The notes under the pieces are model-generated. The model saw nothing but the letters and a program-made list of their open reading frames with translations, searched no databases and was not told where the DNA came from. Position numbers and translations under genes: made by a program. From NCBI RefSeq assembly GCF_002994745.2, contig NC_037094.1, positions 9,944,501-10,008,500 on the forward strand: DNA of 64,000 bases, given 5' to 3'. Shown here piece by piece: positions 16,616-49,324 of the stretch (within the stretch, counting starts at the first letter, position 1; every line of letters starts with the position of its first letter). The stretch is from Rosa chinensis (Eukaryota; Streptophyta; Magnoliopsida; Rosales; Rosaceae).

Positions 16616-16930
16616 GGTGTTGGGTTGAAAGGAAGTGAAAAGTGAAGATCAACAGAGTGATTGAGTGTTTGTGGCGGATTGATCTTAGAAGGACTGAGGT
16701 TGATGATGGGGTGTTGGAGATTTGAAAGCTCAGAGGAAAGAAGTGATTGAATCAACTAGATGGGAGAGAAGATTTGGAAGGAGAAGGATTGAATCGAAGA
16801 AGAAAGGATTGAGTTTTGAAAGAAGGGGAAAGCTGAAGAGTTGAGAGAGAAGGGTTGGAACTCAGGAGAAATTTTTCTTTCCTTTGGAGTGAACAGTTGC
16901 GCCATCAGAATGCACCTATTTATAGAACGA
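16616..16930 (-). promoter_or_regulatory. Promoter and leader of the captured WUS-like gene
   Basis: On the minus strand a perfect plant TATA box TATAAATA lies at 16917-16924, about 300 bases upstream of the ATG at 16615, leaving a purine-rich leader of roughly 270 bases with no upstream splice requirement. An intact promoter is not expected for a simple mRNA copy, so it was either captured separately or evolved in the element. Confidence 0.55.
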
Positions 16931-18520: not shown

Positions 18521-21001
18521 TGTAACGTCCCGAACCTAAATCCACGTGTTTACTAGTCATTTGGACGGTAAACGACCTTTACTTTCACTTTTACTTTCAG
18601 TTTAGTACTTTTAGTGGCCCTAAAAGTTGACTTTTTGTTCGGATCAAAATTTGAGAAACAGTTCTTCATGGAAGTTGTAGAGGACGTTAAACCGAGCGCG
18701 TGCATATGTGGTACGTAAAAATCGGAGTTCGTATGCAAAAGTTATAAGCGAAATACTAAAGTTACTGTTCATATAGTAAGTTTCTATAAATAGCCGAGTT
18801 ACTGTGGTAAGTTTCCATTTTCGGAAACTTACCGAGAGCTCTCTTCTCTCTCCCCGATTCTCTCTTCCTCTCCGACCTCTTCACCTTCTTCCGGCGATAT
18901 CTCCTCCATCCGGCGACGGATTTTGACGTGTAAGGTGTCGTTGGAAAGCTCTATTCATTCTCTTGATTTCTGGGTTCGTTTGGTAGCCTAATATGAACTG
19001 TGGAAGGTGCAGCAATGAGAAGAAGAGGACGGTCACTGTAGCCGAACGGAGGTTTCATCGATTTCCGGCGATTCCGGCCACCTCCGGTCCCCATTTCGCC
19101 ATCGAAGGTTCGGTTTTCATCACTGAGCATTTCCCCTATGGCCTTGTATCACGATTTATTGTGTAGATGCCGAATCGACGAATTGAAATTCTAGGGTTCT
19201 TGAGGATTTCTGGGTTTTTGTTCATTAATTGATTTCGACTGTTTCTAGTTGTTATTTGGAATTGTTGTAGTTATGAAGTTGAATCAGTGTGTTGAGAAGG
19301 TGCTACTGTCAAATTTTGGTGGCCATCGGAGATGGTGGCGGCGGCGCCGCCACTGTGGGCGGCGGTAGCGGCGGCTAGGGTAGTTTATAAATTTCAATTT
19401 TTAGCTAGTTAAATTCTATAATTATCATAGAGCTTATATGTGAAGTTTGGTGAATTTTGGAGGAGTTTGGAATTGTTTGTGAATTTTCGAAGTTTGGAGT
19501 TTTGTGGTGGAATTATGGGAAATCCGGCCGTCGGATTTCCCTCGTTTTCATTATGGAATATGTAAATTGAGGAATTAGAATTGTGGAAGAGATTTGGGTT
19601 GAATTTGAGAAGTATTGGAGATAGGGATTTTCGGATTTCGTTTAAGTTCGTAATTATTTTATCGGATTGCCGTTTACGGAAACATAATTGTGTACAGGGC
19701 AATGTCGCGAGCTACGGTTAGATGAAGGAACTCGTTTGCGTGGTTGCCAATAGTACTGTGAGTGGACTTTTGTTTTCAAACAAGTGATGCGTGCGTTTAT
19801 TTATTAAAGCATGTTTTATTTTATTAACGTATTTACCGAGCATATAAAGATAATTGTGAATTATCTTATGGAATTACTTTTAAATAATGATTCTCATGAA
19901 GTATTTAAGTTTTATACTGGTTGTGAGTTTTGGTTATGAAATTGTTATGCTCGGATTCGAATTTATAAATGATGTTGATTTTCGACGAATTATTTTCCGA
20001 GGTGATTTCCGGAACTTCATATTATATTTTCATTCGTCGATTTGAGTTTTTTTAAAGGATTTTTGAAATGGGATTTCGATGGAGTAAGTCTCCATATTTA
20101 TTTACCGACTTTCGGTTTGGCATTGGGAATGCCTCATTGACAACTTATTCATTTATTCAGCGTGGGACATGGGGAAGTCTAAAGGATTTACTGGAATTTA
20201 TCGGTTTTTAACCACCATACCCAGGGTCGTTCTATATATATTATATTACTGGCTAGCCTATTATTACTCCTCCCTACTTACTATGTGTTCGTAGGTGAGT
20301 AGAGGAGAGCATGGGATGCTCAAGAGTGTGGGACACTCCGACACGAGCCAATAAGGCTCCCTTCTTTCGTATGGTGAACGTCCTTCCCCATATTTTATTA
20401 TGATTTGACTAGCGGGGCTATTCCGATTTATTTTATCCAGCGGGGCTGGAATGGTTTGCACGAGATTTGAGTTTAAAGAAATACGTTTTATAAACGTTGC
20501 ATGCATCGAGACTTTATATTGTAAACTTGTGGGAAAGTATGAAATCCTTTTTCCTTTAAATTGTTTATTTTTGTCCACTCACGCTAACGTTTTTCGTCTA
20601 CTTTCCCCTGGGCTTTTCGGTTTCTAATGCCCAGTTTGCAGGCGAATTAGTGGAGGTCGGGCGTACATGACATTTGAGGCATAGTTGTCACTACTTCCGC
20701 AGTGTAGGATCACTTGATCCTTTACTCATCTGTTATATCCCTGTGTAGTATTGCTCTGCATAACCTTGGGATTAGTATTTTTGAGTTTTGTGTTTTGTGA
20801 AAGTGGAGTTGTTGGTAATTGGGAGCAGGGTGGCTCCAGGAGTATAAGGTTGGTTTGCTTGAAGTGTTTAGTGTGTTTTACAGGTTTTTGGGTAGTCCAT
20901 TTTAGAGGTGACTCTGCCGAATTTTTGGTAGAGTTATCCCTAAGGTGGGCCCCACAGGGCCACCTCGGATTTCAGGGTGTAATTCGGGGCGGGTCCTGTC
21001 A
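18521..21001 (+). repeat. Right LTR
   Basis: 2,481 bp, equal in length to the left LTR at a constant offset of 7,055, with a TATA box at 18785-18792. Followed directly by the target duplication TCTAG. Confidence 0.95.
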
Positions 21002-25466: not shown

Positions 25467-27995
25467 GGGGAGTGCACACACCTTTAAAAAATGAAAACAG
25501 CAGCGGTTCCGTCCATTTTGCAAAGGTGAGTCGGGTCGGAGTAGGATCAGGATGCGAACGGGTAAAACGGTGGAGAGAAAAAAGAGAGATTTTGGTCAGT
25601 GGCATACGCGTAAATATTTCATTAAACTAAGCATTTTGGTCATTTTTCATTAAAATTAAGTGTCAAAGTTGCATCATTAGGCTTTTGGGCCTGAGCTCAT
25701 GTCCTTATTTGTATAAATCTTTTTGAAAGTGAGTTTTCTGTGTTTACATATTTGGTCATGTGCTACTATGTAATTTTCTATTAAAAAATAATATAAATTC
25801 AAAACTAGCTAAAATAGATAGCACTGATGCAGACGTAATTCTAAAGTGGCTAGCTAAAATAACTTTTTAGCTACTTTAACTAAAATTTGACTCAAAAATG
25901 GTTAGCATTGCTAAAGATGCTCTTAGTGGGATTACCACCCAGAGGAAGCCCCAAGTAAAGGCCAAAACTCTGCAGCCAAGCTGTACGTTTTAGCTATTTT
26001 TGTGTTCTACCTACCAAAGAGCATTTAGCCGATTCATTTTCAAACCTGAAAGCAAGCAGAAGCTATCAATGATCATATCTAGGTGGCCTTAGACCTGATT
26101 AAGTATAAGTGATGCATGATGGTAAATTTTAGTAACGCATAAGAGAGGAGATGACTCTAAAGCATACAGTTCCATTAACAACTCTCACACACGATAACTG
26201 AATGTTGCTCAAACAGCAGAAAACTGAAATTCGATACCACTGTAACTAAATGAATGGAGATCAGAATTATATGTATGCAGAGAATGCCTATAAGGCTATA
26301 ACCCACAAAAACAAATAAAAATGAAGCAAGTAGTGTTGCAGATATATACTACATGTGGAACTCAAAATTGATATTCAGACTATTAAATGCTGCGCCACCT
26401 AAATTAAATCCAAATTCTCGTCTTAATGGCTTTGAAACCATTTCTTTTCACGTTATTTAGCATAAGTATTTAGCATAAGATTGCTATGGCAACATGGAAT
26501 GCTAAAACATTTTTGTGTTTACTTTGAAGATCATGTGTTCTATGCAAATGCAATATTTTCCTCAACTAGTCTAACAAAAATTAAAGACTAGGTTTAAAAA
26601 AATTTCCAAAATTGTACTAAATCCGTAGTAACATATGCAGAGGCTGTCACAGTATTATGAAACAGATACTATAGAAGACAGCATACCTTAATCAATAACT
26701 TTTGCAAACGAGGAGATGCATCCAAAAAATACGCCAACTGCAACAGAACACATGCATCATCGGCTTCGATTCGCAACTCCAAGTACTCAAGCTCTGCTAA
26801 CTGAGGAATAGGAAAGACAACATTCTCTTCTAAATGTCAAACAAGGAGTCAGCAATTTTATATTGAATCAACTTACTTGATAAATAGAAGGCTAATCCAC
26901 CATAATTACATATACTAACCAGAAAATTAAGTGTGTTAGCTAGCGTAAGAGTTCTTAGCTGACAGAGACAGCAAGCAAGCTGCTTTAACGCAAGTTTAAG
27001 GAATTCCAGGTCATCCTCGCCAAGGGACACTTTCACTAGATTTCGAACTCTATTCAGGTCCAGGCATATAGGTGTTCCCTCATACCGAAAGAAAGCAAGC
27101 TGAGGTAGATCACAGATCTCAACAATCTCGAGGTTCCAGCAATCTCTGACCACTAAGGACTTCAAACGTACTGAAGAACCGACCATTCTGATTTACAAAG
27201 GGAATTGAGAGCAACTTCAACAGACTTCACCTAAAATGTGCATACTTTGTTCATTGATTGACCTCAAAAGCTATCTCAATTTTAAAATCTTGCTAAACTG
27301 GAATATTTAAATTTGTGAAACACCAACCTAATTCAATCCATGGCCGCCTATTTAGCTTTCATCAGAATCAACATCAACCACTGAAACGCCGCGGAGCTCA
27401 GTTATAGTCTGCATCTTCCTGTTTTCCGGAGAAGTCGTCCATTATTCATTCCAAAGTATCAAAACTGGCATGACATCTAAGGAGCTTTCGACAACATCTG
27501 AGAACACAATCATGAAGCTTCTTAGCCATTTGAGGGAGTCCTTCCATGTCCACTCAAATGGGGAATTAAGAGCATTTCTTTACGTACTCGTATGCAAATA
27601 ATTGAACATCTACGTGAATTCAATAAGACAGGTCAATATTTTGGACGGTAACGAAGCTAAACGTGGAAACTCTGAAGGGGCCAAGTGAAGTCAGAAATAA
27701 ACAAGGAAACGCTAATAAAAACAGTACCCAAAATTAAATATTGGTAATAGTGATATTGCAGCTCCACTCTAACATGTCAATAAATACCAGTTTTTTTTTT
27801 TGTTCGGTTCAAGAAGCAAAGAAAACTTACAACCGAAAGCCCCTCGGGACCCCTAAACAGAACTGATCTAAATTACAAGCAGAACTAGCAGAAAGCGGGA
27901 GTCACTCCTTAAGCAGAACTGCATTAAGTTAATATGCTGTTAAAACTAGCTAACATCTATAAACAGGAGTTTAATTCAAAACCAATGCTTCATCT

Positions 27996-28316
27996 TCAGC
28001 TTTCAAAAGGATTGGCTATTGGAACTCCTTCAGTATATGCTATTCTACGAATCCTTTCGCCATCCGGAGAATAGGGCCATGCAACCACTTCGATAGTTCC
28101 CATCCATCCCTCATTGCGAAGTTTCTTAACTGCCATGACATCTACTGGAGCTTTAACCTTTATAACATCTAGCGCCATGAGGTGCTGTTTGTGAGTCTCT
28201 TCGGCAACTTGGGATGCATGAAGATCTTCATCAGTATTGTCACTAAGATGATGTCTTCGAACAGTTGAGAACGCAATCATGAAGCTTCTCAGCCGTTCAA
28301 GTGAGTCCATCTCCAT
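27996..28316 (-). CDS. Small conserved protein of unknown function, copy 2
   Basis: Paralogue of 944-1264, with 106 residues from the preferred Met (start codon at 28316-28314; an in-frame ATG at 28340 would give 114). The central block HASQVAEETHKQHLMALDVI and the segment KAPVDVMAVKKLRNEGW are identical in both. The gene has a 5' exon near 29500-29530 ending in a GT donor (GAGGTACC) and a TATA box (TATAAAAGG, 29583-29591) in the expected place, so this copy looks the better equipped for expression. No known domain is recognised and no catalytic motif is evident. Between 28341 and 29480 lies the intron, which contains a GGTTAGGGTTAGGG stretch at 29226-29250. Confidence 0.75.
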   Translation of the reverse strand: MEMDSLERLRSFMIAFSTVRRHHLSDNTDEDLHASQVAEETHKQHLMALDVIKVKAPVDVMAVKKLRNEGWMGTIEVVAWPYSPDGERIRRIAYTEGVPIANPFES

Positions 28317-29582
28317 AGTTAAAGACTCTGCACTCCACACAAATCTCTATTAAGGCAAACAAATACCATGTACTATTACAGCTCTTTGCTCGGTAAAAGC
28401 AAGAATAACTAAAGTGCAGTACACAGAACAACACCCACAATAAAGATCAAATTAATAGTTGGCTGGAAATAAATGTATTACACAATGAATCCAACAATAA
28501 TGCTATAACAATGCCAAAGAAGTACTAATGGCAACAGTTCTCCTATTCTTCGTGTTGTCTAATGATAATATAAAAACAATCACAACTTCAAACAAAAGTC
28601 TCTTACACTTGAACCATGTATGAAAAAAATTCTACAAAGTCATATGCGACTAAATTTGACAACCAAACGAGTAAGTGATTCCTACTTTTACAAAGAGAAC
28701 ACGTGTACGCATCATCTTGACAATATGAGCTTAATTAGCTAGAAGGATTAAGGGTTCTAAATCCCAATTGAATGCCCATAGACTTTGAAAATACAAAACA
28801 ATCCTGTAAACTCTTAAATGAACACAGCCCCCCAAAAATTCCTTGACAAGGGTCGTTTTTAACCCCAGACAAACTAGCGCAGAGTACTGTAGGCCCCTTA
28901 TATAAGCACCACTCACCACTAGACAGTCCACCGTTTGCACCAAGAAATAAAGAAGCAAAAACTATTATAGCTAATTGCTCCATAGATACAAAAAAAAAAA
29001 AATCGGTAATTCTAGAATGCACAGTATAAGTACTGATGAGCCCGTACAAAACACGATCTAGTAACACTAACAAGGAAAAGGGATGCTATTATAAAACAAC
29101 AAACTATTGCAAACACGTGGGCATGATTTATATATAAGTTTTTCAAATATCATTCAAATTACTAAACAATTAGAGATAACAGCATACATCATATAGCGAA
29201 CTTTCTTCCCCTAAAGAAAAAATGCGGGTTAGGGTTAGGGTTAGGGTCAGGGCTCAACAATAAATCATTCAAATTAAACTAATTTCATGAAATCAGGAAC
29301 TCCATATATTAGATCATCAAATTCTCAACAGCTATTTCATGAAATCAGGAACTCCATATATTAGATCATCAAATTCTCAACAGCCATAGCAATTTCAATT
29401 CACATGTATATAATGAAAGCACCAAATCTTACGGTCAATAATGATCGCAGATATACAGATTAAAGTTCTGAAAACAAAAGAAGAGAAGAAAGTACAAAGT
29501 AGGGGTACCTCTCTTTGAGGGCAACAGCACAATCTGAAAACTCGGCTTTGCGAATCGACTGGAGCCCCTGGAGCAACTAGGT

Positions 29583-30336: not shown

Positions 30337-32117
30337 TCAATCACTAGAAGAGTTTCCACCGTCCATGCCTGGCAGCATACTTCTAAGCGACATTGCGTGC
30401 TGCCTCCCTTTTCGTTCCTTCTCAATTAACTCATCAGGCTTCCTTCCTCTACGATGCTCACACCATGGGACAACAGGATCGATCACCAGACTTTCTAGCC
30501 CAGCAGCATTGTCCACTATGAATGTGACAATATCAGTCGCTGCTGGGCAATCAAAGAATCCAATAACCTCAACCACCTTTAAGTTTTTGTGCGGATGGCT
30601 CTCGGCTTTCCACAAATTTATCCCCGACCCTAGAAAGTCAAACTAAAATACAAAAACAAAACATATTATTATTACAGTTTTGACATGTATAACAGAAGGA
30701 ATATAGTAATATTAAATACTATATTATTTTTTGCAACCAAGTTGCCAATTTTCAGAGCACACAGGTCAATCAACAACTCTGACTCCAAAGCATACAGTTC
30801 AATCAACAACTCTCACACACGATAGCTGAATGTTGCTCAAACTGCAGAAAACTGAAACTCGATACCACTGTATATGTAACTAGATGAATGCAGATCAAAA
30901 TGATATGTATGCAGAGAATGCCTATAACCTACAAAAACAAACAAAAATGAACCGTTGCAGAGGATATATACATGTGGACCTCAATTAATATTCAAACTAT
31001 TAAATGCTGCACCACCTAAATTAAATCCAAATTCCCGTCTTATTGGCTTTGAAACCACTTCTTTCCACGCTATTCAGTTTAAGACCGCTCAGCATAAGAT
31101 TGCTATGGCAACATGGAATGTTAAAACATTATGTGTTTACTTTGAAGATCATGTGTTCCGTGCAAATGCAGCATATATGCAAATTTGCCTCAACAAGTCT
31201 AACAAATATTAAAGACTAGGTGCAAAGAAATTTCCAAAATTTTACTAAATTTGTATTAACATATGCAGAAGCTGTTCACAGCAGTTATGAAATAGAGACT
31301 AAAAGACGGCATACCTTTAAAACTAACTTCTGCAAGCGAGGAGATGCATCCAAAAAACATGCCAATTGCAACAGCACACATGCATCATCTGGTGAGATTC
31401 GCAACTCCAAGCACACAAGCTCTGGTAACTGAGGAATAGGAAAGACAACAATCTCTTGTGTCTGAAAATGTCAAACAATGAGTCAGCAATTAAATATTGA
31501 ACCAGCCAACATGATAAAATAGAAGGCTATACACTAACCAGAAAACCAAGTGTGTTATCCAGAGTAAGAGTTCTTAGCTGACAGAGACAGCAAGCAAGCT
31601 GCTTGAAGGCTACTTTTAAGAATTCCAGGTCATCCTCGCCAAGGGACACTTTCACTAGATTTGGAACTGAGTTCAGGTCCAGGCTTATAGGTCTTCCCTC
31701 AAACTCAAAGAAAGCAAGCTGAGGTAAATCACAGATCTCAATAATCTCAAGATTCCAACAATATCTGACCACTAAGGACTTCAAACGTACAGAAGAACCA
31801 AACATTCTGATGCGATTTAAACCAGATGCACCAGTCACTGATAGTTGTTCAAGTCCTCGAAAATGAGATATATGCTGAAAAACCTCTCCATTCAGATCAA
31901 CATTTTCAAGCACCAACACTTGGAGGGACTCGCCCGTAATCCGCTTAGTAAAGGAATAGTTATTACGAGAAGGATCAAAAGGGCTGACCATTTCCAAGAT
32001 CAACGCTTTAACATCGCGTTCGAGAGCAAACTCTACCCAATCATCAATTTCGCTTGTATAGCTGCTGTCCAAATCGAAGAAGATATGGAACTTATCAAGC
32101 TTCGTCCCTCTGTACTA
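30337..32117 (-). pseudogene. LRR and FBD portion of the F-box gene, downstream of an in-frame TAG
   Basis: After the TAG at 32115-32117 the same frame stays open through the LRR region (YRGTKLDKFHIFFDLD, then SLQVLVLENVDLNGEVFQHI) to a GT donor at 31539. A 147-bp exon follows (31315-31461, LLQLACFLDASPRLQKLVLK). The FBD exon is 30337-30642 (SHPHKNLKVVEVIGF) and ends in TGA. The stop lies where Leu is expected between VLK and YRG, so one nonsense change separates the F-box from its substrate-binding half. Either the gene has just been lost, or a short F-box protein without LRRs is made. The sequence downstream of the TAG has no other damage that I can see. Confidence 0.8.
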
Positions 32118-35100
32118 CTTTAGAACATCTCTGACCCAGCCAACATACTTTTCCCTCTCTCTAATCTTCAGTCCAATGTCAAGGTTGGCAGAGGGGCCTG
32201 TGTGGTTAACAAAAGTCAGATTTGTAGAATAGGTCCACAAATTTTCCCATGCTTTGCAGGTGAAACTGATTAATGCCGCATCCTTGACTGAGAGGAGTGA
32301 CAGAATATCAACAAGTATCCACTCTGGTATATCAGAAAGGTTCGACGGTACTATTTCCTTTCCGACATTAGATGTGCAGCTCAAATCCAGCTTTCCTCCT
32401 TTCCTCACATCCACAGAAGAAGTACAGTTTGTATTACACTCTTCCAGGTCTGCTCTATCTAATTTCCTGCTTACAGCACCACCTTTTGAAAGCTGTTCTC
32501 TCTTCAGTGTCGTATCTTTTAGTTGCTGCAAAACCTGTCCAACAACGTAGCAGTTCACTTTTCAGTTGTTGAAGATTTCAATGAAAGAGTATTCATCTTC
32601 AAATTCATAGGAAAACAACACATGAAATATTACCTGAGAGTATGGAAGGGAGGGCAGCAAACAGAGAATGTCCAGGACTGCTTTAACTTCTTTCACTGTT
32701 TCAAGTAAACAATGAAATGATGCTGGCTGCTGCTCCTGTTTATTTCGGAGAAAATAGGAAATAAAATTATCTTCTGTTATTAAACACCCATACAAACTCG
32801 GAGGGTACGCAAAACACTAAAACTGGAACCCAATGATTACCTTGAGCACATTTAAGGTTTTCTTTAGAAGATCAAGAGCACCTTGAAAAGCATCATTCAT
32901 TATGTGGGATATGTCCAAATCATCAGTCATTTGAGTCTCAAACTGCTTCTTTAGCTCAATGCTGTCGTTTTGGGCTGTAGTAATTGTAACTGCTGTACTG
33001 CTTTCCTCTGCTCCTCCGGTCAGAGAAGATAAAGCATCTTCACAGTCTTGCAGAGTCTAACAATCACAAAGCAGCATGTCATGAAGTACTAGATATGTAT
33101 AACTTCTATTTCCTTTTAGGTGGTCTTTCTCACTGTTTTAGGGAAACTTGGGGAGTCGTTTAGTGCATAGTTTAAAATGCTATCTACCTAGATCAACTCA
33201 GGTAAACAATGCAAAACAAATATACACAAAAAGGGAACTCCCATCGTAATCATTGTTTTATACAATGGCGACATTAACCAACAAAGCTATGTTCACAGAT
33301 AAGTTGTTTGCTTCTACTACCTAGTGATTATCCTCAAGTCCAACAGACTCCATACAGAATATAAAGACCAATCTACATTAGAAAGTTCGTGTTTATATCC
33401 ACCGTCATTTCAGATTACGTTTGGCCAGATAGTCGGACCAAAAGAAAATAGACATTAGCCTAAATAGAAATATTTTAGCAATAACCAACGGCATAATGGT
33501 ATAACAGTTACCACGGGAAACTGCCAGTACTATCAACCAAGAAAAGGAAGATGAAGAAGCTTGGTGCAACATCTATTACAAATCACATAGAATATCTTTA
33601 TAGGAAAAATCAATGGAAAAGACTTATTCTGGAAAAGGAAAGTTGAATAAACTGCTACAAAACTAGCAGGTGCCCCTGATTACTAAGGCCTCGTACCTCA
33701 TATATGGAATACATGGCAGTTGATGCGCTTTCCAGATGAGAGACAGTAAACTTGATAGAAGACGTGAAGCGTGCACTTAACAGGAAGTATCTTACTGCCA
33801 GGGGATGATAGTATTGAGTAATCTACAGGAAAATAGATTTTGTAATTCAAATTATCATACAAGATACAAGCTCTAAGAAGCATTCAAACAAAGACAAGGG
33901 ATTTCCATAATTACCCAACGAGTTGTGAGAGTTGATTCTGACATTCTCTTGTTATCAATAGTGACAAGCCCATTCTGGTCAGCACTACTCGGAGCAGAAA
34001 TTTCAGTTTGATTTGGACAAATCAAGTCACTGCTGCCAGCATGGATATCAAACTCGAATGGCAGATGAGGAGTCATTGCACTGCATGCAATTGGCCACCC
34101 TGGTCTCCCAGGTCCCCAAGGGCCGTACCAATTTGGCTCACCAGCCTTCGCAGACTGAAAACATTATGAAAGGTCAGAAGTTTTACAACAATATTAATTA
34201 ACAGATAAAGTAAGCATGAGGTGACTTGTGTAGGTTGTCAGACCTTCCACAACAGAAAATCTGCTGGATGGTGCTTTATTAGCTTGAGAGAAATTTGTGC
34301 ACCATCTGTAGCATATTCCAACTTTTGATCAGCATAGACGGCAAAGAACGCATCTCCATCAGCCAGGTAGCCATAGCCCTTGTTGATGATCTACACCAAA
34401 CAATTAGGAGTAATTATAGACTAAAAAGACACAATAGAGAGAACCGTCGCCAAAAAAAAAAATCAGGGAGAACTTGTACAGGTCTTAATTGAATTGTAAT
34501 TTTCTATATTGACTCATCTCCACAGAGTTTTCAATTTCAGGGAACAGAAACCCACAAATGAGTGACTTGAAAAACATGTACAGAAATAAGCGAAAAAAGA
34601 GCAAGCAGAGAACCTGTTCTATCCCCTGTATTATCTGTTCCAGATAATCAGAAACACGGGGCCGAGAGGTGGGAAGGAAGCTTTGGATATCATTAATGAT
34701 TTTGTGGCAGCGATGAGTAGTTGAACTTGACGAATCTTCTTCAAGCATATTTTCTTGACTAATAATCTGAAATGTCCACACATAAGGAAGCGCGATAGAA
34801 GGTCAAGTACCCAAGTACTGAAGAGAAAAAGAACAAGAGAATTGAGGCAACGTTTTCTTGAGTAATAATCTGAAATGTCCACACATAAGGAAGCACGATA
34901 GAAGGTTCAAGTACCCAAGTATTGAAGAGAAAAAGAACAAGAGACTGGAGACAAACGGTAATCAATATCAGTGCGTTCATAAATAAGAACATTCAACCGA
35001 TAAGAACAACTTCCAGTTATGAAACATACTCTTCTGTTAGATTTTATACTCCAAAAATTAATTATAAGTCCATCAGAGAGCATGACATATATTTTTGTAT

Positions 35101-35701
35101 TCCGAGACTAAAATCAATACAAATAAACCTGAACTTATTAGATTCAACAATCAAAGCAAGAAGTTGAGCAATGCACCTACACAAAAACAATAGCCAACCG
35201 CCACAAATCTAATCGAACAGCAATCCTAAGGGACAATCCCCAAAACTGTAATCAAGCGCAAATCCTAACAGAAAATCTACTTACTAAAATCAAACGCAAA
35301 TCCTAAGAGCAATTGTTAGGAGCCACAAATCCTAGCAGAAAATCCACAGACTAGAATCAAACGCAAATCCTAAGAGACAATCGCCAGCAACTAAATGCTA
35401 CAATCAAACACAAACACTAACACCGACAAACCCTAAGACGGATAATAGAGAGTAGGGAATCAAGAAAGCACTTACTTCGCCGGAGCCGAAGTGACCACCT
35501 TGTCCTCCGCCTGCTTCGTTGAGCTGGTCGAAGCAAACACAAACCTTGAGATCGAAAAAGCTTGAGAGGGGTAATAGAGAAGGCGATCAAGAAAGCACTT
35601 ACTTCGCCTGAGACGAAGTGATCGCCTTTTCCACCGCCTCCTTCGTTGAGCTCGTCGATGGATCCTTGGGCTTCGTTTTCGTTGAGCTGATGCAGGTCCA
35701 T
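32115..35701 (-). CDS. Fusion of a degenerate cysteinyl-tRNA synthetase with an F-box domain (8 exons, 500 codons)
   Basis: Eight exons join in one frame, all with phase-0 introns and GT-AG ends: 35603-35701, 34614-34766, 34244-34390, 33915-34154, 33697-33822, 32841-33056, 32634-32735 and 32118-32534 plus TAG. Exon 1 encodes 33 residues ([10 protein letters not shown]...) unlike any synthetase. Exons 2-7 and the start of exon 8 follow the middle and C-terminal parts of plant cytosolic Cys[55 protein letters not shown] and [10 protein letters not shown]. The catalytic marks are gone: the HIGH-containing N-terminal part is absent, the zinc-site His of GWHIEC is Pro (GWPIAC), HHENE is changed to PNQTE and KMSKS to KRMSES. 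Exon 8 then runs directly into an F-box ([20 protein letters not shown], about residues 427-469). It is not a working synthetase; an SCF-linked role would be inference. Confidence 0.75.
34760..34952 (-). repeat. Tandem duplication around the exon 2 acceptor
   Basis: About 85-90 bases including AATAATCTGAAATGTCCACA are repeated with a period near 106 bp (34761-34846 and 34866-34952). The acceptor CATTTCAG is therefore present twice. The inner copy gives the open frame. Confidence 0.8.
35210..35400. repeat. Degenerate short tandem repeat in intron 1 of the fusion gene
   Basis: Units containing AATCAAACGCAAATCCTAA(C/G) and CAGAAAATC recur about three times at a spacing of 60-70 bases. Confidence 0.6.
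35463..35660 (-). repeat. Tandem duplication of exon 1 and its donor
   Basis: Two copies, at about 35588-35660 and 35463-35533, share AAGAAAGCACTTACTTCGCC and the following coding sequence. Each has its own GTAAGT donor, so a second, alternative small exon may exist. The period is about 125 bp. Confidence 0.75.
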
Positions 35702-35779: not shown

Positions 35780-35800
35780 ATGCGCTTTGCTTTATATAAG
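35780..35800 (-). promoter_or_regulatory. TATA box of the CysRS/F-box fusion gene
   Basis: TTATATAAAG on the minus strand at about 35789-35798, some 90 bases above the ATG at 35701, in a suitable position for transcription of the fusion gene. Confidence 0.5.
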
Positions 35801-36757: not shown

Positions 36758-39356
36758 TTAGCTGTTTGAACTGCTTTCGATATCTTGATTGCGGATCGGA
36801 GACCTGACATAGAGCATAATGAATAATGATCATCGTCGGAGATCACAACTATCAGATTCCCTCAGAACACCAAACAATTAAGCAAGCAAAAATTTCGCAT
36901 TTGGAGCAAAGCCGGAAAGCCACATTATAGCATGTTATTCAATAACTAGAACAAACAAATATACCTTCTAAAAGAATCCTCAAAGAGAAATCTCGATCCC
37001 ACAAAAGAACCAGAGCAATGAAGAGAAATCTTCAAAATGTAATATGGAGAATAAGTATAGAAGTGGCTATTCTGTTACTAGCTAGATTCATATGGATAAC
37101 ATACGTACGCTGATATGCAGAAATCCAACTCTTAAGATAAGCAAGCTGATTTCATCAAATGCGATAACACTCTTCTAAGTAAATTAGGGAAAAACTCACA
37201 AACAGTACTTGAATTTCAAGCCACTAAGGGCACGTTTACTTACTTGGAATGGAATGGAATGATTACGGAGTAAAAACACCCTCGTGTTTACTAACACATA
37301 AATGAATCGGAATGATTCCAAGTAAAAGAATTCCTGTGTTTACTAACATATGAAGGAATCGGAATTGGTGTAGGTCCCACCTATTTATCAGGAAACGATT
37401 CCGGAATACTCAGGAATTCGATTACGAAGGGGAGAGATGGGTTTAGGAATCATTCCTCCGGAATCAATACCGATTCATTTCTTCTCCCATTCCACTTGTT
37501 TCCGATTCATGATTATTTTCCATTCCAAGTAAGTAAACGTCCCATAATAACTTTTGGATCCGGCTCCTCTAAAGTGAGGAGGTTGTGAATTTACGTCAAT
37601 TTCATTAAATCTGGACTCTTTGTCTAATCTAAGGGTTATTATAATTGACACATCATTCTTCCATAGATTTTTGGTTTTCCATCTAAACTCCAGTTAACTA
37701 TGCCGTTAACTCAAAAAAAAAAGAAATGAAGAGAGAATTAGGGATTTCTCGTCGACGTTTCTCCCCTGCGTCAAATTCCTTCCTTGTGCTTCCTTTTCTA
37801 TTTTTCTTTGCTTCCATGGCTGCACACCAACCATGCATTAGAAATGAAGGATACAATTCAAATTACAGACAAGCTTCAATGGTGAAAAAGCCTCTCCTGA
37901 AGATGCTATTGAAATATCAATGTGTTCACGAAGAGCACCAAGAACACAGAACCCCTCACTACTACCAGAATAAACCCAATTTCACATTAAAGCCAGTACT
38001 CTGAATAAGAAAGTGATATATAATATATATCAAGTTTTCAAACAAATAAAAAACAGATTATGGATCAAATACAATTGCAGCTAGGTTTTACAATCAAAAG
38101 GCAATGGATGATTGAAAGAACAGAGACCTTCCCCACTAGGGGCTTAATATGCGTAAAGCATAGCGGAATCGCATTGATAAAGCACGTATTGCCAAGATTA
38201 CAAAGCCCTGCACCCTGCGAAACAAAACCATACGTACCAAAACCTAACTTCCCAAGTTTCTTGATGAATTTATTAATTAACACAATTGCAAGAAGTTATT
38301 CCATGCATGGTTGGTGTGCAGCCATGGAAGCAAAGAAAAATAGAAAAGGAAGCACAAGGAAGGAATTTGACGCAGGGGAGAAACGTCGACGAGAAATCCC
38401 TAATTCTCTCTTCATTTTTTTTTTTTGAGTTAACGGCATAGTTAACTGGAGTTTAGATGGAAAACCAAAAATCTATGGAAGAATGATGTGTCAATTATAA
38501 TAACCCTTAGATTAGACAAAGAGTCCAGATTTAATGAAATTGACGTAAATTCACAACCTCCTCACTTTAGAGGAGCCGGATCCCTTACAAATCCATCTCT
38601 TTTGCTTTTACCAAAAGATTCATTCCAAGCTAGCATTAGCACAAACGGAAGGGTTTCCTTGAGTAGGCTCAAATGATGCATGCTTTTCTGTTTTCATAAA
38701 AAATTTCAACATATTGGAGATGTGGAGACTAGTTCTTGGAGAAGCCCATGTCAAACCCACATTATACAGCATTAGTTTCTTAACAATATACTAAACCGTA
38801 GTCAAACTTTATGCTTATCACCACCTAATAATTAGTATTAAAAAAGTATAAACATCATTAGAAAACAGACCCAAAATGCAATATCAGACTCATCAAAAAG
38901 CAATCTTAAGTCAGAAAGATCAAACCTTTGGGGGTTGTTCTTGTTCCTTCTAGCAGCCTGCCTAGCCTTTCTCTTCTTCTTTTTCTTGGAGATGGCGCCC
39001 CTTCTCTTCTTCTTGTCCTGGTTGTTCTCGAAAAACCTCCTCTTCTTGCACTCCAGGAACACGCCGGCCCTGATGACCTCCCTCCTGAACCGGTTGAGGA
39101 GCCACTCCTCCGGCTCGTTGTCTTGGACCAACACCTGGCCGTTGAAGCCGGCCGAGCTGAAGAAGAGCACGTTTGAGTTGGCCAGCGACGGAAAGGCTAC
39201 ATTTTCCGCCGATGGGGCCCAGCTGGCAACGAGAGGGGATGGTGGCGAGGGTTTAGGGAGAGGGACACGTGGCGGAAGAGTGAACTCTTGTTGTGGTGGT
39301 GGTGGTGGCTGAAGGAGGAGGGAGGAGAGGAGCTTGGAGAGAGCTGCAGCAGCCAT
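36758..39356 (-). CDS. Plastid small-subunit ribosomal protein bS21 (two exons)
   Basis: Component of the chloroplast 30S ribosomal subunit, encoded in the nucleus and imported. Exon 1 (38926-39356) encodes a Pro/Ser-rich transit peptide (MAAAALSKLLSSLLLQPP...) and the bS21 core (NVLFFSSAGFNGQVLV, then DNEPEEWLLNRFRREVIRAG and ECKKRRFFENNQDKKKR), followed by a very basic tail. The frame continues across an intron with a CAAAG/GTTTGATC donor and a GTCAG acceptor into exon 2 (36758-36803), ending IRNQDIESSSNS, for 158 residues in total. The start is the first Met, which makes a good plastid leader. Exon 2 is short and inferred from splice sites, so it is less certain than exon 1. The 2.1-kb intron contains two inserted elements. 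A G-run (39411-39430) and the tandem duplication begin within 100 bases of the start. Confidence 0.85.
37232..37545. mobile_element. MITE-like element in the bS21 intron
   Basis: Ends GGGCACGTTTACTTACTTGG and, in reverse complement, GGGACGTTTACTTACTTGG. Interior rich in GGAATGG and GGAATCATTCC motifs, about 310 bp, no coding capacity. A clear target duplication was not found. Confidence 0.65.
37556..38583. mobile_element. Foldback element with ~280-bp nearly perfect inverted repeats in the bS21 intron
   Basis: The left arm (37556-37837) and right arm (38304-38583) are reverse complements with almost no difference, apart from the length of an A-run. They begin GGATCCGGCTCCTC and enclose a 466-bp unrelated spacer. 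Open frames in it (for example 37726-38004) are mirror images of each other and are not genes. No flanking target duplication is evident. Transcription through the bS21 intron would give a long hairpin. Confidence 0.85.
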
Positions 39357-39920: not shown

Positions 39921-42900
39921 CTCCCCCTTGTGTTGTCCAAACGCGATGCTTCTCTCGTTGCCTAGTTAAAAACCTTGCCGAGTAATAAAAACCCAGTAGG
40001 ACAAAAATAACCTACGTCGAAGGGGAAAAAGAGCACAACACACCCTTCACGATTCTAGACAAACATGTAGACATCTCCCCCTGATGTCTGTGCCTCCCCC
40101 TGATGACTACGATCATGGGAGTTCAGATAATTTTCGCAAGCCAATTCTTGCCACATGTTTCTCGAACGTGGATTTGGGCAATGACTTAGTAAACAAGTCT
40201 GCCATATTTTCCTCAGATTGAACCTAATTCACTTTGATCTTGAGAAAAGTCTGTTGTTACTGATTATACTTGGTGTTGTCGCTTTTGATGTAGCCTAGCT
40301 TCATTTGTTCAAAATAAGTAGCATTATCCTATATGCTCGTAGGCTCATCTGTGGTAAACTTCAAACCACAATTGCTTCGAACATCGAAGTTGAATCACCT
40401 TCTGGTGATGAAGATGAGCGGGAAAAGAGTTACAGTACTTCTCCCGCCAATAAAAAAACCTTTAATTGGGGACTCATTTCTTGTTGACCCGACCAGACCC
40501 CCGACCCGAATCAAGCATCATACTCTAAACTCTAAAGCAGCATATATTACTTTCCGGATTTAATGTTTGATGCATTTCTTTTTTAATTTCTATTAATACA
40601 AAGTAAATCATAATCGATCTTCTCCAATAAATTAATTTAATAAGTGTTTTAGGGAAACGAGAATTGAAAGGAATTTGCTGTGTATTCTCATTGATAATAT
40701 GGGTCTCTTTATATAGAGGATTACAATGCATAAAGTTAGAATCATACAAGGAAAGATAATATCTAGATTCTTCTAATTGAACCTTATTACCACTAGGTCA
40801 AGTAACCTAGAGTTTGGACCAAACACAAATAGAGATATCCTTAAACACTCCCCCTTGTGTTGTCCAAACGCGATGCTTCTCTCGTTGCCTAGTTAAAAAC
40901 CTTGCCGAGTAATAAAAACCCAGTAGGACAAAAATAACCTACGTCGAAGGGGAAAAAGAGCACAACACACCCTTCACGATTCTAGACAAACATGTAGACA
41001 TCTCCCCCTGATGTCTGTGCCTCCCCCTGATGACTACGATCATGGGAGTTCAGATAATTTTCGCAAGCCAATTCTTGCCACATGTTTCTCGAACGTGGAT
41101 TTGGGCAATGACTTAGTAAACAAGTCTGCCATATTTTCCTCAGATTGAACCTAATTCACTTTGATCTTGAGAAAAGTCTGTTGTTACTGATTATACTTGG
41201 TGTTGTCGCTTTTGATGTAGCCTAGCTTCATTTGTTCAAAATAAGTAGCATTATCCTATATGCTCGTAGGCTCATCTGTGGTAAACTTCAAACCACAATT
41301 GCTTCGAACATGCGTAATTACGGATCCAATCCATATACATTCACTAACCACTTTGTGAAGAGCAATGATCTATGCATTGTTCGAAGATATAGCGACTATG
41401 GTTTATTCTGTAGACCTCCAAGATGTCACCGTCTTTTCCCATGGTGAACACTTGACGGGATTGGGAATGACCTTTGTGTGGGTCAAAGAGATACCCAACA
41501 TCAGCAAAACCTTCCAAAACACTTATATCGTTTTGGGATGGGGATAGAGAACGCATGCCAGGATTGGCGGCGTTCCTGGTGTTTGATGGGTCCGAATCCA
41601 TCATCTCTTTGTAAGGATAGAATAAGCCTATATCAATCATACATCTCAAATATCGAAAGATATCTTTTACACCAATCCAATAGCGTCGCGTTGGCACAGA
41701 GCTATATCTAGCTAACAAGTTCACAACATATGAGATGTCCGGTCTTGTGCATTGGGATGAGTACAATAATGCGCCTATTGTACTCAAGTAAAACACTTCT
41801 GCCTCTAGCACATCTTCGTCATCATCCTTTCGACGAAGAGAATCCTTTTCAGGATCAAGACTATGGACGATCATGGGGGTGCTTGAAGGCTTGACCTTGT
41901 CAAAATGCCTAAGCATCTATCGACACGATGCTCAAGTTCTAAAACGAGACATAATCGTGTTCTCCCAAAATCCTTCATCTCAAACTCGGATTTCAAGTGT
42001 TTAACGGTTTCCCTTAACTCTTTAAGGGCTTCTAATGAAGATCATGTCTAACATGAACCGATATAAAATCCGAAACTTGTCATAGAAGCGCGTGGGCACA
42101 TCCCTTCCCAATCAAGTAGTCACTTTAGTGAGTGTTTCAATCTTATTGTAAACGCGCTCCGTGGTCTAGAGCCTCTTGACTTGGGTAAATGAAGTTCACC
42201 ATGAACCTTCATGTATATTCCGTATCTAGATCCCCATAGAGATACGTAGTGACCACATTTGTAAGCTGCATGTTTAGTTATTCGGAAACTACCAAACTAA
42301 CAAGGTAGTGGAGTGCAATGACATTCATTACGAGAGAATATGTCTCATCGTAGTCGATTCCAGGGCGTTTTGTGAGAAGCCTTACTCCATAAGGCGAGAC
42401 TGCCATCTCTTTTTCTCATAACGCTTTCTAACGAAGACTCATTAGTCAATATGTTTTATGTTAGGAGGTGTTGGCATCACTGGCTCAAAAACCTTCCTCT
42501 TCGCTAGAGAATCCATCTTAACCTGGATCACATCTTTCCATTTAGGCCAAATCTCTCTATGTTGGCATTCATTCATCAACGGAGTGTGGTTCGATATCAT
42601 AGGACTCATGAGCAACAAAATGAGCAACTACATCATCAATTATGATGGAGTTTGTATCCCACGTCTCATGTATACTAGTGTAATTTTCATAGAGCTCTAT
42701 ATTATCAGGAATAGGTTCTGACGTTGAGGCGTCCCCCAACGATAACCATAACCCGAAAGATTCTCATGAGATGGATTTTGAGTCTTGATGATCAAAGGAT
42801 TGGAATGTGTCAAAGTATCCTTCGAACCCACAGGCCTTCCACGCATCCTAGCTGGGGCCATGGATTGTAATGCCAGAGTGTCACTCTCTTTGGCGTTGGC

Positions 42901-44400: not shown

Positions 44401-44414
44401 TGACCCTTCCGAGT

Positions 44415-46322
44415 TATGGTTATATTTGGGTGACGCCTCAACGACAGAACCTATTCTTGAGAATATAGAGCTCTTTGAAAATTACACTAGTGTACATGAG
44501 ACGTGAGATAGAAACTCCATCATAATTGATGATGTAGTTGCGCATTTCGTTGTGCATGAGTTTGTTGAGTCCGATGATATCGAACCACGCTCAGTTGATG
44601 AATGAATGCCGACGTAGAGAAATTTGGCCTAAATGGAAAAATGCGATCCAGGTTAAGTTTTATTCTCTATCGAAGAGGAAGGTTTTTGAGCCAATTATGC
44701 CAACACCTCCTAACATAAAACATGTTACTAATGGGTATTCGTTAGAAAGCGTGATGAGAAAAAGAGATGACAATCTAGCCTTATGGCGCAAGGCTTCTCA
44801 CAAAATGCCCTGGAATCGACTACGATGAGACATATTCTCTCGTAATGGATGTCAGTGCACTCCACTACCCTGTCGGTTTGGTAGTTTCCGAATAACTGAT
44901 CATGCAGCTTACGATTGTGGTCACTACATGTCTCTATGGGGATCTAGATATGGAATATACATGAAGGTTCATGGTGAACTTCATTTACCCAAGTCAAGTG
45001 GCTCTAGACCATGGAGAGCATTTTACAAAGAGATTGAAACGCTCACTAAAGTGACTACTTGATTGGGAAATGATATGCCCGCGCGTTTCCATAACAAGTT
45101 TCGGATTCTATCGCGGTTCATGTTGGACATGATCTTCATTAGAAGCCCTTAATGAGTTAAAGGAAACCGCTGAACACTTGAAATCTGAGTTTAAGATGAA
45201 TGATTTTGGGAGAACACGATTATGTCTCAGTTTGGAACTTGAGCATCGTGTCGATAGATGCTTAGGCATTTTGACAGGGGAAAAGCCTTCAAGCACCCCC
45301 ATGATCGTCCGTAGTCTTGATCCTGAAAATGATCCTCTTCGTCCAAAGGATGATGACGAAAATGTGCTAGAGGCAAAAGTGCCTTACTTAAGTACAATAG
45401 GCGCATTATTATACTTATCTCAATGCACAAGACCGGACATCTCTTATGTTGTGAACTTGTTAGCTAGATATAGTTTTGCGCCAACGTGACGTCATTGGAT
45501 TGATGTAAAAGATATCTTTCGATACTTGAGATGTACGATTGATATGGGCTTGTTCTATCCCTACAGAGAGACGATGGATTCGGACCCATCACACACCAGG
45601 AACGCCGCCAACATTGGCCTGCGTCCACTATCCCCAATTCCCCATCCCAAAACGACATGTGTTTTGGAATGTTTTGCTGATGTTGGGTATCTCTCTGACC
45701 CACACAAAGGTCATTCCCAAAATGGTTAAGTGGTCACCATGGGTAAAGACCGTAATATCTTGGAACATGCCCTAATCGCTATATCTTTGAACAATGCAGA
45801 GATTATTGCTCTTCACGAAGTGGTTCGTGAATGTATATGGATTGGATCCATAATTACGCATGTTTGAAACAATTGTGGTTTGAAGTCTACCACAGATGAG
45901 CCTACGAGCATTTAGGATAATGCTGCTTGCATTGAACGAATGAAGCAAAGGCTACATCAAAAGTGACAACACCAAGCATAATCAACAACAACAGACTCTC
46001 CTCAAGATCAAAGTGAATGTTTGATATGAGGACAGTGTGGCAGACTTGCTCACTAAGTCATTGCCTAAATTCCACTTTCGAGAAACATGTTGGTAGCATC
46101 GTTTGTGGAAGTTATCCGAACTCCCATGACCGTAGTCATTAGGAGGAGATGCAGACATCAGGGAGAGATGTCTACATTTATGATCTCGAAACATGAAGGG
46201 TGTGTTGTGCTCTTGTTCCCCTTCAACCGAGGTTATTTTTGTCCCACAGGGTTTTTGTTACTCGGCAAAGTTTTTAATGAGGCAACGAGAGGAGCACCAC
46301 GTTTGGGCGACACAAGGGGGAG
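44415..46322 (+). mobile_element. Second Ty1/copia fragment, plus strand, RT to 3' end
   Basis: Mirror of 39921-42740: the RT start at 44538-44828, an RT segment at 45178-45489 (CTRPDISYVVNLLARYS) and a piece at 45526-45729, ending in a polypurine tract (ACAAGGGGGAG) before the LTR. It is broken by stops. Together with the minus-strand element it forms a large imperfect inverted repeat. Confidence 0.85.
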
Positions 46323-46555
46323 TGTTCAAGTAAATCCAGAATATGTGTCAGGCCCAAACTCGAGGTTACTTGCTCTAGTTGAAATATGATTTATATTAGA
46401 GATATTCTCGGAGAATCTTAGGAGATATCCAATCAATGTACGATTATGTTTCCATGTACAACTCTATCTCTATGTTTGTAATCCTCTATATAAAGAGGCC
46501 CCTATTATCAATGAAAGTACCATTCAATTCTCTCCCAATTCAGTTTTCTTTAAAC
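46323..46555 (+). repeat. Ty1/copia 3' LTR, plus strand
   Basis: TGTTCAAG...TAAACA, about 233 bp, with a TATA-like TATATAAAG in the middle. It is similar to but not identical with the LTRs at 39718 and 40645. Confidence 0.7.
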
Positions 46556-49324
46556 ATAAATGAATTACATTTAAATGATCGTAGGGGACTAGGTATGGTG
46601 GTAGATCCTATTGAAAGACTATTCCAACCCAAATTTTTTTTCAAGGTTTACATATTATAGGTGCTAATTTTTTTATGATATTTATATATATTTTAATCAA
46701 ACTTATAAGAGCGGTTATATCATTCATCTTAAGCTAGAATGATCATTACTTACTGATTTTTCAAAAATATCACTTAACTCAAGGTCTATGGGCTATATGT
46801 AGCAGGCGGTGTGCCTTTAGAAAAATGGAGGTCGATCCGCATGATAGTGGAAATGTGGAATAGAAGGTTATGGACCGTCGATATTTGATCTGACGGTTTA
46901 CATGGAGTCTTGGAGTGGGTGCGGATCGCTGACCTGGCACAGTAACCAGCACCTATAATGAATTTGCACAACTACCTTCACTAAAACCCTATTCAAATGG
47001 CATATACCACATTCAATGTGGTGTGAAAATCTTTCTCCCAAGGAAGAGGCTGACAATTTTGAAAGCTGTGTCAAACATAACTACAGGCAGATGTACCCTT
47101 GCGCTTCATGATGAGGACAACGATGGTTGTCAATACTATGAGTACCTAGATCCCCCCATGATGCATGAGGGTTATGATTTACACTATCAACTGGATCGAA
47201 TTAGGAAATGTATAAGATATTCAGCTTTACTATCTACTTCTCTTTTGTCATGCATCTGACGTTCTAGTTGATTTTGTTATGTGTGGTATTTTCAGCTTTA
47301 TTAACTACTTCTCTTTGAAAATCATTAAGAAATGTCAAAATCAAGACCAGCCTCATTGAAACTGCTTTTTTCCCCTCATATAAACTGTCTAGCAATTTAT
47401 GTGAAGCCAAACTATTGTTTTAGTATGGCTCCAAGTGCCATACGTTTTGGGCACCAAGGCCATTCTCGATTTAAAAATATTTGTTTCTTTATTTTGATTT
47501 TAGATTTGAAAATTTAAATATGTCGATAAATGATGCCTAATTTTTATGCATATATAACGCATGAAATGAATTTTTTTTTTGCGAATCATTCAAGTCATGC
47601 CATAACAGAGTTTCACTTGATTCTTGACCTCTAAATTAGTTCGAAAAGTTTATTTGAGAGCTCAAGACATTAGTTTGACATGGAAAGAAAGAAAGAAATA
47701 AGAAATTATATGAAGCACCTTTACCTACGCCATCTACGATATTTTCGTGTGTAGTTTTTTTTATATAGATATTGGTTGAGTTGGCAAAGTGCTGTGTTTA
47801 TTTTGTTCATTCTTAATATGTCTTTGATATACCGATATTTTCTACTATTATTTCTTAAAATTTCTTTTGTTAAAAGAAAATCTAGCATTTTTTATTTTCA
47901 CTGTCCCATTTTCTTTAGTTCCAATATCTTCTATTAGTATTTTTTTTTTTTAATTCTTTTAAAATGTAGTCTAAATTTCTTGGAAGCATTATCAATAATA
48001 AAAAAACAAAACAGTTTTCTAATTAGCAAGTCTTTAACTAGCCCACCCTAAATTTGCATTATAGTCCGCCACTAATTAGGGAAGTGATAACTGTTAACGA
48101 AAAGAGGTTATCAACTATTCAACTATGTTTAACAAGGTCTTCGAATTAATATAGCTGGAACGAAAAGGAAAATAAAACAAGAGATGAAAAAATAGTCACA
48201 TTTTTTTCGTTGATTTTTTCAAGTTAGATTGTCAACCGAAATTGGTTGACAAGCTAAGAGAAATTAAGCTCCAAATGGTAGACTATAATATGGGTCTACA
48301 TTTTGCTTCTAGACCTATACATAAGCAACACCTTGGGTCGACATTTTTCAAATTTGCTGGTAAGTAGTACTTTTTTTAACAGGAGCAAGTGTTATGTCAT
48401 GTTCATATTTTCTAGACAAAAAATCACTAATGGTCACTGAGTTATGACTTATTCGACACTTAACTTACTCACATTTATCATTATCTTATGCTTAACTCAC
48501 TGCTGTTATATCTTCTGTTAGAAGAAGTTAAAATAGAGGATATATTTGTATAAACACTAAATATACATTTCCAACTTGAAAAAGAATTTTGCTAAAGAAA
48601 AAAAAGGCAGATTTTTTTTTTTTTAAAGAAATTATCAGAAAATTGTAAAAAAAATTTGAAAAAGAAACCTAATAACTTTCTTCAAAAAATTCATTTTCTT
48701 AATTTTCAAATATTTATATGTAATTTGACAAAAATAACCCTCTTCATACAAATTTTTAACGACGCAATAGATGTCGTTAGATGAGAGTGAGTTATGTGAA
48801 AGACAGATGTTAAAGTGAGTGATTTAAATAATATTTTTGAATAGTTAGTGAATTCAATGTCGCATGAATCATAACTCAGTAACCATTAATGATTTTTTCC
48901 CTCTTTATAAAATATTGTGTCGTGACAAGTATTCCAAGCCAGAGTTACTTGGAATATTAGATTTTCTAGCTGTGGTTTCTTAAGGACAAATGTATAAATG
49001 TCTCAATGGCAGCGTGCAAAGCAAGTCAGTAATAAGTTTATGTTGGTAATTTGTATATAAAAAATTCATCTCAGTACTCTCTTTTTTTATCAACAAAGGG
49101 AGACCATTTATCAGAACCCCTACCAGAGTTATGGGAAAGACAAGTCAAGGAGTATCGGAGGAACTGGGGGTGGTGGAGTCTAGAAGGGTAGGAAGGGTAG
49201 GAGAGCAAGGTGAGGATATGGGGAAAAGAAAAGCGAGAACCCAACAACAAATTATCGATTGTAATTAGTAGCACTATACAGAAATTACAAAAGGCAAGAT
49301 GCAATTGTCTTTTTGATGATAAAA
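46556..49324. other. AT-rich intergenic region with a degenerate repeat copy
   Basis: No gene is seen except the remnant at 47023. At about 48090-48410 lies a diverged copy of the repeat that is tandem at 55910-57650 (shared GCTCCAAATGGTAGACTATA). Confidence 0.5.
47023..47259 (+). pseudogene. Short remnant with weak GRF-zinc-finger likeness
   Basis: The frame contains TTGRCTLALHDEDNDGCQYYEYLDPPM followed by a possible helix, in two parts resembling the second half of plant GRF-type zinc fingers (GC-Y-W-DPPM). The first Cys pair is not visible and no intact gene extends around it. It may be a fragment of a transposon-associated protein. Low confidence. Confidence 0.25.

Follow-up and report, generated by a model that had tools for sequence, protein, structure and literature searches.

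Does this locus of Rosa chinensis encode a degenerate cysteinyl-tRNA synthetase (CysRS) fused in frame to an F-box domain, as the first-pass annotation proposed, and is the predicted 500-residue protein its natural product? The gene lies on the minus strand of the window (the whole 64,000-nt stretch of DNA that was analysed), and splicing of that strand reproduced the claimed eight phase-0 exons with GT-AG ends and an uninterrupted frame of 500 codons, which is closed by a TAG (Table 1). All eight exons were found within the unit delimited as 32115..35701, but its 3' end did not hold, because exon 8 is open past the TAG and exons 9 and 10 follow. The listing of eight exons had also overlooked a 48-nt microexon, which repeats the end of exon 1 in tandem (repeat 35402-35531/35531-35658, 81.5%); with the microexon included, the product up to the TAG has 516 aa. 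A chance run of splice sites is ruled out as the origin of this model, since the same segment order is found in an independently annotated protein of Rosa sericea (P0001).

Table 1. Features of the fusion gene and of a partial duplicate of it, in window coordinates.
Feature	Coordinates	Strand	Remarks
TATA-box-like sequence	35790..35798	-	Begins 97 nt upstream of the ATG; consensus match only
Exon 1	35603..35701	-	ATG and novel 33-residue N-terminus; one difference from P0001 residues 1-33
Microexon (48 nt, 16 codons)	35476..35523	-	Splice sites and phase; present in R. sericea P0001
Exon 2	34614..34766	-	Start of CysRS-like part, at the 'KIIxxAN' position of plant CysRS; without the HIGH half
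Exon 3	34244..34390	-	CysRS-like; in-frame deletion of 8 residues
Exon 4	33915..34154	-	CysRS-like; altered GWHIEC, HHENE and KMSKS
Exon 5	33697..33822	-	CysRS-like
Exon 6	32841..33056	-	CysRS-like helical region; final Met codons ahead of the F-box
Exon 7	32634..32735	-	CysRS-like helical region
Exon 8 to stop	32115..32534	-	CysRS-like end, linker (residues 380-424), F-box (427-463)
In-frame TAG	32115..32117	-	Aligned to a lysine of P0001 and a glutamine of P0126 (R. chinensis F-box/LRR)
Exon 8 past stop	31539..32114	-	Open, LRR-coding; PF23622 E=1e-10
Exon 9	31315..31461	-	LRR
Exon 10	30337..30642	-	C-terminal part; P0126 alignment extends through it
Copy B (partial duplicate carrying only LRR sequence, from the end of exon 8 and from exon 9)	26687..27192	-	Continues at 23126-23400

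Residues 42-246 of the spliced protein match PF01406 (E=4e-37; 128.7 bits, cut-off 27), and its best PDB match is the E. coli CysRS 1li5 (4.4e-38); by homology, this part is CysRS-derived. The match enters the 301-position Pfam profile only at position 72, the HIGH motif and the N-terminal half of the Rossmann fold being missing. Within exon 4, GWHIEC has become GWPIAC (the Cys is retained), HHENE has become NQTE with the deletion of one His, and KMSKS has become RMSES, followed by a three-residue deletion. Alignment with plant CysRS thus bears out the reported loss of the catalytic signatures (HIGH, HHENE and KMSKS). The Zn ligands of E. coli CysRS are C28, C209, H234 and E238; in the fusion this set is incomplete, as the N-terminal Cys belongs to the missing half and GWPIAC and NQTE are altered. 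The 'middle and C-terminal parts' of CysRS that had been described are present as the remainder of the catalytic domain and the helical region, whereas a Pfam search of the fusion gave no match to the anticodon domain CysS_C at E<=1; control enzymes gave mixed results for this domain (25.1 bits for P0026 of R. rugosa, above the cut-off of 23, and 16.1 bits for P0003 of R. sericea, below it). Judged from its sequence, the fusion lacks four features of an active CysRS, namely HIGH, KMSKS, a complete set of Zn ligands and a recognisable CysS_C.

Plant cytosolic CysRSs (P0003, P0026 and Rubus P0002) show 40-45% identity with the fusion and share with it the helical region and the portion of PF01406 that begins at profile position 72, but their HIGH half, HHENE, KMSKS and CysS_C are absent from it. 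A midpoint-rooted tree of 34 rows comprised the two fusion sequences (window and P0001) together with 32 proteins picked by hand from the other 119 of the 120 listed among 441 matches. The branch separating the two fusion sequences amounts to 1.63 + 0.56 changes per column, and the attachment point of the long CysRS-like branch among cytosolic plant CysRSs was not settled by these 34 rows.

The F-box profile PF00646 gave the window protein 21.5 bits and P0001 22.4 bits (cut-off 20.5), and on this match the fusion contains the F-box of an F-box/LRR protein; the F-box-like profile PF12937 remained below its cut-off of 24.3 in both (21.7 in the window protein). The proposed in-frame fusion is thus upheld by the PF01406 and PF00646 matches and by the R. 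sericea orthologue. No in-frame ATG was found between the beginning of exon 7 and the TAG; the F-box therefore lacks a separate start, barring one supplied by an unrecognised upstream exon, and initiation within that open frame is ruled out. The exact fusion point was not placed, residues 380-424 being unlike either CysRS tails or F-box N-termini. This linker gave no convincing match to CysRS tails (303/500 and 374/500 shuffles were as good) or to the N-terminus of P0126 (320/500), and a five-residue match to the N-terminus of P0123 (26/500) is too short for use.

P0001, an annotated protein model of 761 aa, is 92% identical to the window protein and carries the same segments in order under the name 'cysteine--tRNA ligase 2, cytoplasmic'. 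It shares the CysRS motif losses, the CysRS/F-box fusion and the microexon sequence with the window copy, but has a lysine at the position of the TAG and the LRR in frame. The check for orthologues in related species, which had been suggested, therefore turned out in favour of the fusion, and a junction private to this genome is ruled out. A counterpart of copy B (P0125) also occurs in R. sericea, on a contig equal in size to that of P0001, and the two probably lie on one contig. Two protein searches each scored some 8,000 candidates. Of 441 matches, 120 were listed, and in these the fusion was found outside the window in one species only (P0001), and further protein listings (5/5 and 2/2 rows examined) added no species. 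A literature search covering titles and the openings of abstracts found no description of a CysRS/F-box fusion. The arrangement of an F-box followed by an At1g61320/AtMIF1-type LRR is shared with P0126 (475 aa; 36% identity to the F-box/LRR part over 439 columns) and with the At2g42730-like P0122 of Rhododendron; unlike the fusion, both lack a CysRS part, have their own start Met and contain no internal stop.

The frame is intact despite the motif loss, as had been claimed. In neutral-decay simulations, which started from the window's own exons rather than from an ancestor and used a simple mutation model, all 300 runs at 62% identity had acquired at least one stop, as had all 300 at 55% and all 300 at 45% (mean 8-11 stops); at 80% identity, 6 of 300 had none. 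Over residues 34-379 there are ten gaps relative to P0003; the linker holds an eleventh, and none of them breaks the DNA frame. The comparison with R. sericea gives no clear sign of recent purifying selection on the CysRS part: 11 of 346 of its residues differ (3.2%), and copy B is about as slow in its exon 8/9 part (6/137; 4.4%), whereas identity is 78% and 83% in its other two blocks (45 and 23 residues, overlapping in part). Differences are fewer in residues 34-420 (15/387) than in the F-box and LRR (26/321; Fisher p=0.02), but this contrast arises largely because of one divergent stretch around the TAG, where 16 of 66 compared residues (472-538) differ, and the CysRS part compared with the LRR alone gives p=0.09. 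A count of 16 was reached by 0 of 5000 shuffles, for a stretch length picked after the data had been seen. Between this gene and copy B, dN/dS of the LRR is 0.43 over 417 sites.

These values bear on the view that there is no functional fusion, and that gene predictors have joined a decayed CysRS duplicate to an F-box/LRR gene downstream of it. Such decay would fit the vanished catalytic motifs, the stop in this copy and a CysRS-part divergence not clearly below that of the copy B fragment (exon 8/9). We nevertheless consider it quite unlikely, given the lack of a separate start codon for the F-box, which is in frame with the CysRS-like part within one exon, the annotation of the same model in a second species, and the maintenance of a stop-free frame in the CysRS part across a long divergence.

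After the TAG, 342 further codons without another stop extend over three exon parts. They encode an LRR of the At1g61320 type, for which P0001 also has a PF23622 match. Because the orthologue reads into the LRR, whose exons have stayed open in the window copy as well, this copy is most plausibly a three-part gene (pseudo-CysRS, F-box and LRR) that has been truncated. Between the TAG and the exon 8/9 junction downstream of it lie 576 nt, so that transcripts of the truncated copy are likely NMD targets. It is less likely still that the full-length protein persists, with the TAG being an assembly- or haplotype-specific base, removed as part of an exitron, or read through. The frame past the TAG would permit this, and a candidate in-phase exitron (32148-32065, GTATGT...GGACAG, 84 nt) has a simple-count score within the range of real sites. 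However, P0001 retains that segment as coding, and a good-looking pair is unsurprising among the 217 in-phase GT/AG pairs of 60-600 nt around the TAG. The context of the TAG, which we take to be unlike known leaky contexts, counts against read-through, and the number of differences from R. sericea around it indicates a stretch that truly diverges. Least likely is the product originally put forward, a functional pseudo-CysRS/F-box protein of 500 or 516 residues whose CysRS-like module takes over the binding role of the LRR, since the intact frame up to the TAG and the F-box score above the Pfam cut-off are outweighed by an orthologue that continues into the LRR, by LRR exons with usable splice sites and by the NMD geometry of the stop.

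We therefore regard this locus as probably a chimeric gene of the Rosa lineage, encoding an SCF adaptor with a non-catalytic CysRS-derived module, whose LRR was recently lost in this genome. A cytosolic-type CysRS gene would have been duplicated, losing the first exon or exons with the HIGH motif, and the duplicate would have acquired a new promoter and a first exon, later duplicated to form the microexon. Its 3' end would then have been joined, within one exon, to an F-box/LRR gene lacking a start codon, so that all parts would be carried by a single mRNA. The product would be of the SCF substrate-receptor type, the F-box putatively binding SKP1 for ubiquitin-ligase assembly and the LRR and/or the CysRS module binding a partner. 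A recent TAG just past the F-box would have removed the LRR here, and transcripts of this copy would undergo NMD or yield the 500/516-residue protein without the LRR.

The CysRS part may serve as a 'binding module', and the structure prediction that had been proposed for it fared unevenly: Foldseek returned CysRS as the top match of the AlphaFold model, but the superposition was poor (rmsd 23 A) and mean pLDDT was 58.9. The most confident blocks fall in the CysRS-like part, mostly in the helical region, but as CysRS made up 53 of the 58 alignment rows, this lends the fold little support. There is some, rather small, chance that roses have kept the dead synthetase module as the recognition part of an SCF receptor, the module being the only substrate binder of the short form here. 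If so, the receptor might couple partners of tRNA or of a synthetase complex to protein turnover. Provided that the fusion is produced as a protein, it would represent a lineage-limited recruitment of a housekeeping synthetase, minus catalysis, into a ubiquitin-ligase receptor, and the full-length form in one rose could be compared with the truncated form in another.

The name 'cysteine--tRNA ligase' is misleading for P0001, which lacks the catalytic motifs and should be classed with the F-box/LRR proteins, not with the synthetases. The precomputed domain list of P0001 names no F-box. At exon 10, P0001 uses another acceptor than the window copy, and its protein ends in KGRG.

The fusion gene on the minus strand joins a cysteinyl-tRNA synthetase (CysRS)-like part and an F-box in one frame, and its first-pass annotation proved accurate at the sequence level. 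The eight phase-0 exons with GT-AG ends were reproduced by splicing (Table), and Pfam detected the CysRS catalytic domain (PF01406; E=4e-37, residues 42-246, profile positions 72-299 of 301) and the F-box (PF00646; 21.5 bits, cut-off 20.5) in the resulting 500-residue protein. The solved structures matching best by sequence are CysRS enzymes (1li5, 4.4e-38). No CysS_C domain was seen by Pfam in the window protein, and the same model is also weak in P0003, a CysRS of Rosa sericea. The eight-exon list overlooked a microexon that duplicates the last part of exon 1 in tandem. A tandem duplication of ~102 bp (34750-34954, 93% identity) has copied the start of exon 2 together with its acceptor site, resulting in a second potential acceptor.

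Table. Features of the fusion gene and of the partial LRR-only duplicate (copy B)
Feature	Coordinates	Strand	Remarks
Eight exons of the fusion gene	35701-32115	minus	GT-AG ends, phase 0; 500 codons, then TAG
Microexon	35523-35476	minus	48 nt; tandem copy of exon 1 end
Exon 8 after the TAG	open down to 31539	minus	same frame
Two further exons	31461-31315, 30642-30337	minus	phase 0; complete the C-terminus
Copy B block	27186-26920		95.5% identity to P0125
Copy B block	26830-26687		95.8% identity to P0125
Copy B block	23400-23266		77.8% identity to P0125
Copy B block	23278-23210		82.6% identity to P0125

The F-box-bearing open frame lacks an ATG throughout exon 7 and in exon 8 as far as the TAG, and the F-box is thus translatable only together with something upstream. 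Because, in addition, exons 2-7 fit in frame upstream of it and exon 8 is common to the CysRS tail and the F-box, as had been noted earlier, the sequence favours a single gene, in agreement with the R. sericea annotation.

The 500-residue query retrieved 441 proteins (7,997 candidates scored), and among the best 120 listed, only P0001 of R. sericea carries the fusion. This protein (761 residues, 92% identity across the full query) provides the orthologue in a related species that had been proposed as a check; its order is CysRS-like, F-box, and then LRR, and it includes the microexon and has a lysine at the position of the window's TAG. The next eleven matches (P0002-P0012) are plant CysRS-domain proteins with 41-49% identity. 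An F-box/LRR query (427 residues; 7,993 candidates scored) found five proteins, namely P0001 and four with 24-31% identity. Each half belongs to a familiar protein type; their combination appears to be new and was found only in Rosa among the matches listed. We know of no earlier example, and none was found in 5.39 million open papers, judged by titles and abstract openings, in searches covering F-box/CysRS fusions, plant aminoacyl-tRNA synthetase gene fusions, and chimeric genes or domain fusion.

The catalytic signatures have indeed been lost from the CysRS-like part (the HIGH half, HHENE, and KMSKS). Among 53 CysRS rows, 147 columns reach a conservation of 90% or more; at these, P0001 has 78 residues kept, 53 changed, and 16 missing. 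In the midpoint-rooted tree, a long branch (1.63 + 0.56 changes per column) leads to the pair of fusion sequences. The alignment of residues 34-379 to P0003 contains ten gaps, with one more in the linker by our count; despite these gaps, the frame is unbroken and free of stops, as first described. When neutral decay was simulated on the exons of this part, none of 300 runs was stop-free at each of 62, 55, and 45% identity (mean stops, 7.9, 9.1, and 10.7, respectively), and 6 of 300 were at 80%. The unbroken frame and these simulations suggest that the CysRS-like part was probably translated during most of its divergence; the fusion may fall before or after. Comparison of the two roses gives no evidence of recent constraint on this part: 11 of its 346 residues differ, and in copy B the exon 8/9 part shows 6 differences in 137 residues, with more in the other blocks.

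The gene does not end at the TAG (32117-32115), where the first-pass annotation had ended it: the remainder of exon 8 and two further exons add 342 codons. PF23622, an LRR model, matches the post-TAG part of exon 8 (E=1e-10), and P0126, an R. chinensis F-box/LRR protein, aligns to the F-box/LRR part through exon 10 (36% identity, 157/439 columns). The TAG is probably recent because the LRR frame past it is still open. It lies 576 nt upstream of the exon 8/9 junction, a distance at which a stop usually marks a plant transcript for NMD. Most likely, NMD would silence the copy in this genome, or only a pseudo-CysRS/F-box protein would remain. Splicing out an in-phase 84-nt exitron is a conceivable way of regaining the LRR frame. 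Around the TAG, 16 of the 66 compared residues at 472-538 (32004-32204) differ from R. sericea, and elsewhere 26 of 675; 0 of 5000 shuffles gave as high a cluster, for a stretch picked after seeing the data. Gene conversion or fast evolution may account for this cluster. Over 417 sites, the gene's own LRR part and that of copy B have 19 synonymous differences and 29 others (dN/dS 0.43), a ratio that fits constraint on the LRR in the past.

Judging from the families involved, the full-length R. sericea protein would most likely act as an SCF receptor, with the F-box binding SKP1, the LRR binding substrates, and the CysRS-derived helical region forming an additional binding surface. AlphaFold modelled the CysRS-like part most confidently, chiefly residues 231-410 (pLDDT 76-97 in most ten-residue blocks); the whole-model mean was only 58.9, with no reliable model for the F-box/LRR. 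Foldseek ranked CysRS structures highest; they superpose poorly on the model.

The post-stop query found two proteins, P0126 and P0125 of R. sericea, the latter matching copy B. P0125 and P0001 are annotated on contigs of equal length, probably one and the same, so the fusion gene and copy B are probably arranged alike in both roses. Segment 756-2043 recurs inverted at 27192-28474, adjoining copy B, and the boundary at 27192 resembles the breakpoint of a rearrangement. The segment at 756-2043 lies beside an SF3A1-like gene (PRP21/Surp/ubiquitin; 2294-4408), which has an SF3A2-like gene (7753-8811) close by; both are SF3a splicing-factor genes on the minus strand.

Direct repeats of 2,481 bp each (11466-13946 and 18521-21001, 99.92% identity) appear LTR-like and very recent. 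They flank an ORF (15911-16648) with a homeodomain (PF00046, 5e-9), which we take to be WOX-like, and the whole is possibly a retrotransposon with a captured homeobox gene. A perfect 931-bp tandem duplication (39454-40384/40381-41311) and a related inverted match (40628-42759 with 44406-46573, 85%) arose very recently or else reflect the assembly. Inverted repeats of 283 bp (37556-37838 and 38303-38583, 99.3%), ~460 bp apart, resemble a young foldback or TIR element.
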